Notes under the pieces: generated by a model
The model's input: the letters and a program-made list of their open reading frames with translations, nothing else
Databases searched by the model: none
Told to the model about the DNA's origin: nothing
Translations under genes and position numbers: made by a program
Source: Haloferula luteola
GTDB taxonomy: Bacteria; Verrucomicrobiota; Verrucomicrobiia; Verrucomicrobiales; Akkermansiaceae
Assembly (NCBI RefSeq): GCF_014201715.1
Contig: NZ_JACHFD010000001.1
Location: 1-64,000, forward strand
Reading direction: 5' to 3'
DNA length: 64,000 nucleotides
Shown here: positions 34,260 to 37,316 of the stretch, one piece after another
Layout of the letters: every line of letters starts with the position of its first letter
How positions within the stretch are numbered: position 1 is the stretch's first letter

Positions 34260-34742
34260 TCAGAGTTCCTTCTCAATTTCCTCAAGCAATCCCTGGCAAG
34301 CATCTTCCACGAGATCGGCGACTCGCTCGAAACCATCTTGCCCGCCATAATAAGGATCGGGAACATGATCCGCATCGATCGACTGACAGTGATCGGTGAG
34401 GAGTCGAATTTTCGAATGATGGGTGCCGTGTCGATCCATGCGGCGGAGATCCGCAAGGTTTTCCCGGTCGGCGGCGAGAATGTGGTCGAAGATTTCCAGA
34501 TCCTGGGGCGTCACTTGCCGAGCGCTTCCGAGAATCGAGTAACCTCGCGCCTTAAGAGTCGCGGCCATGCGTCGGTCGGGTGCGTGGCCTGAATGGTAGC
34601 CGATGGTGCCGGCGGAATCGATTTTGATGCGCTCCTTCCAGCCGGCCTTTTCCACCAGATCGCGGAACACGATCTCCGCAGCAGGGGAGCGGCAAATGTT
34701 TCCCATGCAGACGAAAAGAACGCGAACCGGTGGCTTGGACAT
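34260..34742 (-). CDS. low-molecular-weight protein tyrosine phosphatase
   Basis: A 160-residue cysteine phosphatase. VLFVCMGNICRSPAAE is the P-loop C-x5-R-S signature at the N-terminus, and VPDPYYGG carries the catalytic general acid Asp-Pro-Tyr-Tyr. DSAGT and HxARQVT-like GSARQVTPQDLEIFD are family blocks. Substrates may be tyrosine kinases of envelope polysaccharide export or arginine-phosphate proteins; none is adjacent. ATG 34742 is the family start. It lies 57 bases before feoA in the same direction and is divergent from the WA-x-x-DP repeat gene. Confidence 0.92.
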   Translation of the reverse strand: MSKPPVRVLFVCMGNICRSPAAEIVFRDLVEKAGWKERIKIDSAGTIGYHSGHAPDRRMAATLKARGYSILGSARQVTPQDLEIFDHILAADRENLADLRRMDRHGTHHSKIRLLTDHCQSIDADHVPDPYYGGQDGFERVADLVEDACQGLLEEIEKEL

Positions 34743-34827: not shown

Positions 34828-36192
34828 ATGGCCATGAATTCATCAGTCACCGTAGGTGTCGCCGCCCTCCTTTTGGGAGGGGTTGGCGGCTTCATGGCGG
34901 GAAAGTCCGGCGGCTCGGATGCCGCGGAATCGACCGCCTCGTTGGAACGTGATGCCAAGATCCGGCGTGAGACGGGATCTTCTGCATCGGAAGATCCCTC
35001 TGGTCCCCGGGCCCACAGCATTCAGGAGGCTCTTCGCGAACCGGGGCAATTGTCCCGTCTGCAGGCCTTGGCGGACCTCTATGAAAACATGAGCGTCGAT
35101 GAACTCTCGGCCGCGGCCGACACTCTCGACAACCTCCCCATGGGAGATCGCATTCTTGCTTCCATCTTGCTCTTCAGCCGCTGGGGTGAACTCGACCCCC
35201 AAGGCGCTTTGGCCTACAGCCAAACCATGGGCTTCGGCGGGATGTTTGCACGGCCGACGATTCTTCGCAGCTGGGCCAGTGTGGATCCGGTGAATGCCGC
35301 ACAGTATTACCTCGATAATCCCAATGAGTTCCGCCAGATGGGTGGACGCGGTGGTCCAGGCGGCGAAAGCGGTGCGGATACGATTGCTCGTGAGTGGGCC
35401 AAATTGGACCCGGAAGCAGCAATGGCTTGGGCCAATGGTCTGGAGGGCGACGAAAAGGGAAGCGCCATGGTTTCGGTGATCAGCGAGGTTGCCGCCAGCG
35501 ATCCGGCCAAAGCGGCCGCGATGGCAGCCAACCTGACGGGAGATGACCAGACCCGTGCCTATGGCGAAATCGCGAAAAACTGGGCCACGACGGACATGGC
35601 TGCCGCGGAAAGCTGGGCGAATTCTTTGACCGGAGACGCCAAAGACCGGGCGATGTCGGAAGTTTTGGAAGTGCTGGCTCGCACCGATGTCGATGCCGCT
35701 GCCGCCAAACTTTCATCGGTGAGCGAAGGCGAATATCGGGACCGCCTGGTGGCCACTCTGGCTGGGAAAATGGCTCAGACCGATCCTGCCGCCGCCGCCG
35801 CATGGCTCGGAAGTCAGGACAGCGCGGACTACGGCAATGCCATGCGCGAAATCATGAACAACTGGGTCTCTCAAGACAGCGAAGGGGCCTTGTCATTCAT
35901 CGAGGCTCAGCCTGTAGGTGAGGTCCGCGATTCGGCGACTCAGACGTATCTCTGGCGCAGCCAGGACACGATTGAGCCCACGGCCGCCGTCGCTTTGGCG
36001 GAAGCCATCAGTGATGAGCGCAGCCGTAGCATGACCATTGGCATGACGGTGCGCCGTTGGATGGAAACGGACGAGGACGCAGCGCGCTCCTATGTGGAAT
36101 CGAGCACGACCTTGAGCGACCGAGCCAAAGAGCGCATTCTCAGCGGCCGCGGTGGTGGCCCGGGTTGGGGCCGCGGTCCGGGCGGACGCTGA
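34828..36192 (+). CDS. WA-x-x-DP repeat solenoid protein, membrane-anchored
   Basis: A 454-residue protein. An N-terminal hydrophobic segment (SVTVGVAALLLGGVGGFMAG) acts as an anchor or signal peptide. From about residue 80 come some ten units of ~30 residues of the form WA-x-x-DP-x-x-A-x-x-W/Y (SRWGELDPQGALAY, RSWASVDPVNAAQYY, REWAKLDPEAAMAW, KNWATTDMAAAESW, GKMAQTDPAAAAAW, RRWMETDEDAARSY and others). This predicts an alpha-helical solenoid. The end is a Gly/Arg-rich tail (GRGGGPGWGRGPGGR). The type is common in Verrucomicrobiota but has no known function. ATG 34828 is chosen before the anchor. It is divergent from the phosphatase gene. Confidence 0.8.
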   Translation: MAMNSSVTVGVAALLLGGVGGFMAGKSGGSDAAESTASLERDAKIRRETGSSASEDPSGPRAHSIQEALREPGQLSRLQALADLYENMSVDELSAAADTLDNLPMGDRILASILLFSRWGELDPQGALAYSQTMGFGGMFARPTILRSWASVDPVNAAQYYLDNPNEFRQMGGRGGPGGESGADTIAREWAKLDPEAAMAWANGLEGDEKGSAMVSVISEVAASDPAKAAAMAANLTGDDQTRAYGEIAKNWATTDMAAAESWANSLTGDAKDRAMSEVLEVLARTDVDAAAAKLSSVSEGEYRDRLVATLAGKMAQTDPAAAAAWLGSQDSADYGNAMREIMNNWVSQDSEGALSFIEAQPVGEVRDSATQTYLWRSQDTIEPTAAVALAEAISDERSRSMTIGMTVRRWMETDEDAARSYVESSTTLSDRAKERILSGRGGGPGWGRGPGGR

Positions 36193-36209: not shown

Positions 36210-36863
36210 TTACTCCGACTCTTCTTGCGGGGCGGGTTCGATGCTTGGAGCGTCGGCCCGCCCTTCTTCTTGAGCTGGGAGGGTTGAAACGGCTGCTTGC
36301 CCCTTGAGCAAATCCTGAGTCAGGGAGTGGCCGGGATGTTCCTTGGAGTAACGGATCCCAAGTCCGAGGTAGAGCGCGACGAGAGCCAATAGGGCGAAGA
36401 GCGGCATCGGCATCGGACGAGCAAAGGCCCCCAGTTCCTGGCGCAGGCTTTCTTTCTCAGCTTCGGAGACCAAGCCACGCTTGGGCGCGAATTCCGCCTC
36501 ATCGGAGGTGTCTTCCCGGATGATCGCAGGGGTGCTTGCATCTTCTTCGGCCAAGGTCACCTGTTCTTCTTCGGTGAGGTGGAAAAGAAATTCCACGTCT
36601 CCCAGAAGAACTCGGCGGCCATCGATCAATGGGGTGATGTCGCGCGACATGCCGCTGAGCTTCGTGCCATTGGTGGAGCCCAAATCGCGGATTTGGAACC
36701 CTCCGGGGATGCGCTCCATCACGGCGTGCTTCACAGATACGGAGGTGCAGTCGATGACGATGTCATTCTCACTCCCGCGGCCCATCATGACAGACTGGCG
36801 GTCCGTGTTGAAGCGATAGGGTTGGGAGGGTTTCCCGGGAGGCGTGATCGTGACTCGTGGCAT
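36210..36863 (-). CDS. FHA-domain membrane protein
   Basis: A 217-residue protein. The N-terminal FHA domain (about 1-100) has the phosphothreonine-binding pattern MGRGSENDIVID, SVKHAVME and DLGSTNGT. An acidic linker follows, then one membrane helix near 152-172 (LFALLALVALYLGLGIRYS) and an Ala/Glu/Pro-rich tail. FHA domains read Ser/Thr phosphorylation, so it may recruit phosphoproteins to the membrane. No kinase is adjacent. It is convergent with the repeat protein gene (17 bases apart) and divergent from bactofilin. Confidence 0.85.
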   Translation of the reverse strand: MPRVTITPPGKPSQPYRFNTDRQSVMMGRGSENDIVIDCTSVSVKHAVMERIPGGFQIRDLGSTNGTKLSGMSRDITPLIDGRRVLLGDVEFLFHLTEEEQVTLAEEDASTPAIIREDTSDEAEFAPKRGLVSEAEKESLRQELGAFARPMPMPLFALLALVALYLGLGIRYSKEHPGHSLTQDLLKGQAAVSTLPAQEEGRADAPSIEPAPQEESE

Positions 36864-36995
36864 GATAAGTGAAACGGAAGAAGTTGGCGATTTCTAGCGA
36901 TCGGCTTGGGGATTCGCACGGAAATTCCGGGGAAGATCCACCATTCGGGAAATCCCGGTTGCCAAGGGGCGGGTGCTTTGCTCGATTATCCGGCT

Positions 36996-37316
36996 ATGGC
37001 GAGCGCAACGAACGTTTTGTCGAGCGGGATCGAAATCATTGGATCGATCCGGTTTTCGAACGACATGATCATCGATGGTCAAATCGAAGGGGAAATCGTG
37101 TCCGAAAAGGGCAAGGTGACGATTGGAGAAAATGCCAAGGTCAAAGGCGACATCACGGCCGGAGAGGTGAAAGTCTTCGGCAAGGTCGAAGGCAAGATCA
37201 CCTCCGAGCGCTGCGAGTTGAAATCAAAGAGCCGCCTCGACGGCGACATCAAAACCAAGAATCTCTCGATGGAGGAAGGAGCTTCCCTTTCCGGTCGCAC
37301 GGAGATCGGAGGGTGA
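36996..37316 (+). CDS. bactofilin
   Basis: A 106-residue polymer-forming cytoskeletal protein. A short tail (MASATNVLSSGIEIIGSIRF) leads into the right-handed beta-helix with regular Gly/Ile/Val turns: IDGQIEGEIVSEKGKVTIGE, KVKGDITAGEVKVFGKVEGK and RLDGDIKTKNLSMEEGA. Bactofilins self-assemble without nucleotide and anchor cell-wall or polar proteins at the membrane. ATG 36996 is chosen; an upstream in-frame start would add a tail unlike the family. It is divergent from the FHA gene and ends at a strong terminator. Confidence 0.92.
   Translation: MASATNVLSSGIEIIGSIRFSNDMIIDGQIEGEIVSEKGKVTIGENAKVKGDITAGEVKVFGKVEGKITSERCELKSKSRLDGDIKTKNLSMEEGASLSGRTEIGG

Follow-up and report, generated by a model that had tools for sequence, protein, structure and literature searches.

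A 31-residue helical-repeat protein of Haloferula luteola with relatives fused to sigma factors

Introduction

What might be the role of a repeat protein that matches no domain model? The question is raised by a gene in the first 64,000 nucleotides of contig NZ_JACHFD010000001.1 of Haloferula luteola (Verrucomicrobiota; assembly GCF_014201715.1), the whole stretch of DNA analysed here, which we call the window; the gene product is called the window protein in the following. A sequence-only reading had described it as a membrane-anchored solenoid of ten units with an RGG-like tail that could bind nucleic acid or polysaccharide, belonging to a family prominent in Verrucomicrobiota yet uncharacterised. 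The main new point of our analysis is a link of this family with sigma factors.

Results

A helical solenoid with a 31-residue repeat

The features of the locus are as follows.

34260..34736, minus strand: gene for a low-molecular-weight protein tyrosine phosphatase (PF01451, by Pfam), divergent
34834..36192, plus strand: repeat-protein gene, 452 codons and stop, start set by orthology
34843..34908, plus strand: N-terminal hydrophobic, Gly-rich segment, likely a membrane anchor, about residues 4-25 (A1 alignment and hydropathy)
34909..35001, plus strand: variable low-complexity linker, about residues 26-56, pLDDT below 50
35002..36156, plus strand: alpha-solenoid, residues 57-441, 11 two-helix units of about 31 residues (AlphaFold and period)
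35314..35367, plus strand: Gly/Arg-rich loop inside the solenoid, residues 161-178
36151..36189, plus strand: C-terminal Gly/Arg tail, residues 440-452
36210..36863, minus strand: gene for an FHA-domain protein (by Pfam), convergent

The open reading frame at 34828-36192 (+) comprises 454 codons and a stop, its first ATG lying in frame two codons upstream of 34834. In an alignment of 30 proteins (A1: the window protein and 29 relatives, 17 of the same genus, 9 of the same family and 3 of the same order), the orthologues begin at the second methionine, so that 34834, rather than 34828 as assigned earlier, is the likely start.

By autocorrelation, the window protein has a period of 31 residues (best lag 31, followed by 32, 62, 63 and 94), and the observed value was reached by none of 2000 shuffles, which confirms the regular pattern of about 30 residues noted before. 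The proposed WA-x-x-DP signature, however, occurs in its strict form only twice, while the remaining units keep the pattern loosely: a relaxed W-x-x-x-[DE]-x-x-[AG]-A is found five times, against a maximum of two in any of 5000 shuffles. At the DNA level, Tandem Repeats Finder detected no tandem repeat, and a scan for promoters and terminators gave about as many sites as in shuffled sequence.

An AlphaFold model computed from the 30-row alignment (mean pLDDT 86.0, pTM 0.78) shows a helical solenoid over residues 57-441, mostly at pLDDT 90-98 and lower around residues 171-180, flanked by residues 1-56 and 442-452 at values below 50. Of its 25 helices, we paired 22 into 11 two-helix units, so that the count of ten had been nearly right. 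The prediction, proposed beforehand as a check, yielded a repeat solenoid and no known enzyme fold, which a model that is helical throughout rules out. At E <= 0.001, Foldseek returned a single match; by title, most of the 50 matches listed of 1024 are helical-repeat proteins. With VIA-align, PPR proteins rank first at Z 15.4 (rmsd 20.7 over 346 aligned residues), 15.1 and 14.9, followed by TPR, importin and HEAT-type chains; the tool itself points out that helical repeats commonly score as high as about 13. Such matches between a predicted model and PPR, TPR or HEAT-type chains may reflect a common arrangement only, showing neither kinship nor function. A sequence search of solved structures gave no significant match (best E 0.65).

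The anchor proposed for the N-terminus is supported. The Gly-rich segment is hydrophobic in all members, with a mean Kyte-Doolittle value of 1.78 over the 30 rows of A1 and 1.35 or more in each of them; this hydropathy is moderate, however, reaching 1.6 in only 18 of 30 rows, and the model is of low confidence there (pLDDT below 50). Inspection of the listed N-termini by eye revealed no general lipobox.

At the other end, the RGG-like tail proved both present and conserved: under a rule demanding at least 5 residues, 60% G or R and two RG/GR, it occurs in 23 of the 30 rows, including 18/18 of the genus and 5/9 of the rest of the family, and in 0/3 of the order. In 24 of 30 rows, G and R account for at least 40% of the inner loop at residues 161-178. 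For comparison, 15 proteins from a set of 17 further loci were examined, one of which (L078) is itself a row of A1; in the other 14, G/R make up 25% or less of the last 20 residues in 12 cases and 45% in two, so that the tail largely marks the orthologous group of the window protein.

Distribution and gene neighbourhood

That the protein was called uncharacterised holds true, inasmuch as no Pfam, NCBIfam or PADLOC model matches it. Sigma-70 regions 2 and 4 in particular were found in it by neither Pfam nor NCBIfam, and TPR and PPR models of Pfam match neither the window protein nor any of the 30 members of A1, among which Pfam gave scattered weak matches only (HEAT_2 in one, at E 0.42). A role in anti-phage defence was considered and dismissed, with 0/4 proteins matched by PADLOC.

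All 18 genomes of the genus that were searched, the window's included, contain a match at E 1.9e-125 or better. Among relatives, 43 of 57 genomes match at E <= 1e-3, and in a draw from the phylum 19 of 115 do so at E <= 1e-10, while one genus of the window's own family, g3, is without a match at this threshold in all 14 genomes listed. The family may thus be called prominent in Verrucomicrobiota only in part. As the g3 genomes almost certainly encode TPR proteins, we infer that the repeat profile does not simply respond to any helical repeat. Its matches number 22 in the window's genome, 83 in genome G010 and 121-122 in genome G049, where several may fall in one gene. A query of a named genome collection with the single protein retrieved one locus, a distant relative in Catenovulum sediminis (L045, 4481-6759), which has 396 residues, an N-terminal hydrophobic stretch and repeats; its divergently encoded neighbour resembles an ECF sigma factor by eye. 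In the literature, as judged by titles and the beginnings of abstracts, we found no paper about the repeat, nor any about sigma fusions of this type in the lineage. A 2021 re-classification of ECF factors may well include these sigma factors as groups.

The gene neighbourhood was compared over regions of 10-16 kb for 20 of the 26 orthologues in the family other than the window's. The most constant neighbour is the divergent phosphatase gene, present in 16 of the 20 regions at distances from next door to about 6 kb. A sulfatase gene (PF00884) separates it from the repeat gene in L054 and L061, two of the three genomes tested; the spacer gene at the same place in the third (L068) has no Pfam match. 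FHA, bactofilin and LON-domain genes occur near the orthologue in 4/20 regions each, and FeoB in 3/20. In the window, a bactofilin gene is situated beyond the FHA gene at 36906-37316 (+), and this FHA/bactofilin order recurs in 4/20 related regions. There is no sigma gene beside the window copy. None of this fixes a function for the window protein.

Fusion with sigma factors

In six genomes searched with the repeat profile and Sigma70_r2, both occur in single open reading frames among the matches listed. In these fusions, sigma regions 2 and 4 are followed by a linker, in most cases by a hydrophobic segment, and finally by the repeats. The gene behind often encodes a further protein that has repeats and is hydrophobic in an N-terminal segment; it overlaps with the fusion gene by 4 nt in six instances (L051, L087, L088, L092, L093, L138). 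Pfam places Sigma70_r2 above cut-off in all six fusions scanned and in one more, and TIGR02937 is above cut-off in 5/5, whereas zinc-finger and TPR domains of Pfam are found in none of seven. Some of the underlying gene coordinates come from a simple longest-frame caller, with spurious opposite-strand frames in places (e.g. around L056 and L059).

The association exceeds expectation. In G010, 8 of 50 sigma places have a same-strand repeat match within 3 kb downstream, compared with a random mean of 0.60, and none of 10000 random placements reached 8 (the 83 matches were grouped for this purpose into 60 "genes", with some genes thereby split); in G049 it is 17 of 90, with 1.19 expected. Placements were uniform in both genomes and ignore gene clustering. 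Sigma domain and repeat share one open frame at 12 of the 90 places in G049 and at 2 of the 50 in G010. Sigma genes with no such repeat nearby are nevertheless the majority (42/50 and 73/90 in G010 and G049, respectively). In G049, the repeat goes with length: it is matched in 15 of 24 sigma frames of at least 480 codons, leaving 9 without, and in 2 of 66 shorter ones.

With one fusion, L086, as query, 17 of the 18 genus genomes match at E <= 1e-20. Full-length matches occur in G010, G016, G007, G003 and G005, while the sole match is confined to the repeat part in G001, G004, G006 and G015 and to the sigma part plus linker in G002 and G017. G014 has the window orthologue and no L086 match at this threshold, which makes the orthologue independent of the L086-type fusion. 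The window's own genome encodes a fusion of 659 residues (L145/L146), with a sigma match and a repeat-profile E of 2e-12, and a sigma protein of 686 residues (L051) with a repeat gene behind it, which itself reaches only 0.0026 with the repeat profile.

Is the repeat module of the fusions homologous to the window family? Comparing the profile of A1 with that of an alignment of 13 sigma fusions (A2), we obtained a probability of 99.8 and an E of 1.5e-28 over 394 columns, the aligned span (residues 3-443 of A1, 235-636 of A2) taking in the membrane segment and everything up to the solenoid's end. The sigma part of A2 alone gave a probability of 0.3, and permuted columns 0.1 or less in 8/8 runs. 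The A1 profile matches, at E <= 1e-3, 26 of 28 chains that had been picked as candidates for a sigma-plus-repeat fusion, as against 0 of 560 shuffled chains, the controls being shuffles and permuted columns; one of the two that miss the threshold is L051. In most A2 rows the membrane segment is immediately preceded by a methionine, which would fit an origin of the fusions in which a sigma gene was placed in front of a gene for an anchored solenoid. A model of a fusion contains the sigma helices, a low-confidence helix at 231-247 and a solenoid at 290-629, with block means of 71-94; at a pTM of 0.49, the relative placement of sigma and solenoid parts is loose.

Some other loci deserve mention. 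On contig G000:C39 (L047, 3289-7234), one strand carries in succession the gene for a sigma factor of 175 residues, a 71-codon frame, and the genes for a protein with a signal-peptidase S26 domain (PF10502) and for a repeat protein of 746 residues; a peptidase placed between sigma factor and solenoid is suggestive. On G000:C2 (L144, 55-2285), a sigma factor of 451 residues extends past region 4, with no repeat motif by pattern; the gene that follows, with an overlap of 4 nt, encodes a protein of 292 residues that by eye has a hydrophobic stretch at its N-terminus. Extension of sigma factors together with a partner gene thus seems to reach beyond this repeat family. In G049, four sigma-repeat fusions of 806-833 residues (L095-L097 and L100) are each preceded by a small same-strand frame of 146-213 residues.

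Discussion

What do the fusions tell about the window protein? Sigma factors work in the cytoplasm, and so must the sigma part of the fusions. With this part inside and one membrane segment in between, the solenoid would come to lie outside the cytoplasm. The hydrophobic segment of the A2 rows has a best 19-residue mean of 1.41-2.04, at 1.6 or more in 10 of 13; four of 18 fusion loci (L087, L095, L098, L102) have no segment at 1.6, and L103 has two, whereby the topology would turn round there, so that the outside placement may not hold for every member. Flanking charges leave the topology undecided: the window orthologues have 0.77 K/R before the segment and 1.27 in the 15 residues after it, and 29 stand-alone relatives, some of them with spurious starts or not repeat proteins, have 1.72 K/R per 10 residues before and 1.59 after, a difference too small to decide. 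Should the solenoid indeed be situated outside the cytoplasm, nucleic acid, one of the two ligands first envisaged for the tail, is the less likely one.

Taken together, our analysis suggests a sensing or scaffolding role of the solenoid family in systems of membrane-tethered sigma factors. Our preferred reading, to which we assign a probability of roughly 0.45, is that the window protein stands alone within a family of alpha-solenoids that are anchored in the inner membrane, face the periplasm and serve ECF sigma-factor signalling in this lineage; its own role is inferred from homology alone. In the fused relatives, the sigma factor would be held at the membrane by the chain's own helix, with the solenoid in the periplasm. 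The solenoids might then form pairs or bind a ligand in the envelope, and this pairing or binding could control the release of the tethered sigma factor, for instance by regulated proteolysis as in IutY. The least supported steps are those concerning the window protein itself, which might work in trans within that network or serve as a constitutive scaffold, and whose Gly/Arg loop and tail might grip an anionic envelope polymer. Against the preferred reading speak the phosphatase, rather than a sigma gene, as the neighbour kept by the orthologues, the presence of the orthologue in G014 without an L086 match, the moderate hydropathy of the membrane segment, the two fusion candidates that miss the profile threshold and the majority of sigma genes with no repeat nearby.

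Tethered sigma factors are a known kind, and the window copy itself has no adjacent sigma gene; those with an outer domain of their own are few and little studied (PMC8999054). IutY (ECF243) is a sigma factor fused to a membrane-bound anti-sigma part and freed by Prc and RseP (PMC8999054), and it resembles the fused relatives in combining an ECF sigma domain, a membrane helix and an extracytoplasmic part in one chain. It differs from them in being siderophore-responsive and in its anti-sigma part, where the fused relatives have a repeat solenoid as the outer part, and from the window protein, which lacks a sigma domain. ECF48, ECF52 and ECF53, which the same paper expects to work like IutY, share with the fusions a sigma domain followed by one or more C-terminal membrane helices (e.g. 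SCO4117), but they are actinobacterial and contain a zinc-finger domain (PMC8999054), unlike the fusions scanned (0/7). SCO4117 in addition carries a carbohydrate-binding domain (PMC5826349). ECF42, too, is a sigma factor extended by helical repeats; its extension, however, is a TPR of about 200 residues (PMC8999054), whereas that of the fusions spans about 300-650 residues behind a membrane segment and has no TPR match. PPR and TPR proteins, the best fold matches, are two-helix repeat solenoids like the window protein, which is set apart from them by its 31-residue repeat with a W-x-x-x-D-P-like signature and no match to either family.

Which other explanations have to be weighed? A possible though somewhat unlikely one is that the protein acts in the periplasm as a scaffold on which envelope or exopolysaccharide is assembled, with no role in transcription, that its Gly/Arg regions bind an anionic polymer and that the sigma fusions merely reuse the fold. 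In its favour speak the constancy of the phosphatase neighbour, low-molecular-weight phosphatases being regulators of polysaccharide export in other bacteria, the sulfatase gene in two of the three genomes tested and the restriction of the tail largely to the orthologous group. These phosphatases have many roles, however, the spacer gene of L068 matches nothing in Pfam, and among the window genes scanned no polysaccharide genes were identified beside the repeat gene.

An ordinary TPR- or HEAT-type adaptor too diverged for Pfam appears improbable to us: it would be of the same two-helix repeat class, and the fold matches include HEAT, TPR and importin chains, but TPR models are silent in all 30 members, the single HEAT_2 match has an E of 0.42, and the window family has its own sequence signature and its own gene neighbourhood. 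A cytoplasmic PPR-like solenoid that binds RNA or DNA with the help of the RGG-like tail is, by a small margin, the most improbable of these readings. While PPR proteins lead the VIA-align ranking and few positive charges precede the membrane segment in the orthologues, the PPR Z values have to be seen against the 13 or so common among helical repeats, the rmsd is very large, and the likeness may be one of common arrangement only. PPR repeats are 35 residues long, as opposed to 31 here, no PPR model matches, and the sigma fusions put the solenoid across the membrane segment from the sigma part.

Returning to the reading that links the window protein with ECF signalling, a bolder version, which we regard as unlikely, would see in these proteins a new class of transmembrane signalling systems with many copies per genome, in which a tethered sigma factor with a periplasmic solenoid pairs with the solenoid encoded by the next gene, and in which the window protein would be a lineage-conserved, sigma-free hub docking on the envelope with its Gly/Arg tail. 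If the reading proves right, some genomes would hold a dozen tethered sigma factors with a solenoid as the outer part (12 in the same frame in G049), and the recurrent pairs of fusion and partner gene would be test units for envelope sensing and sigma release. It would also provide the first functional handle on a large family for which no model was returned by Pfam or NCBIfam.
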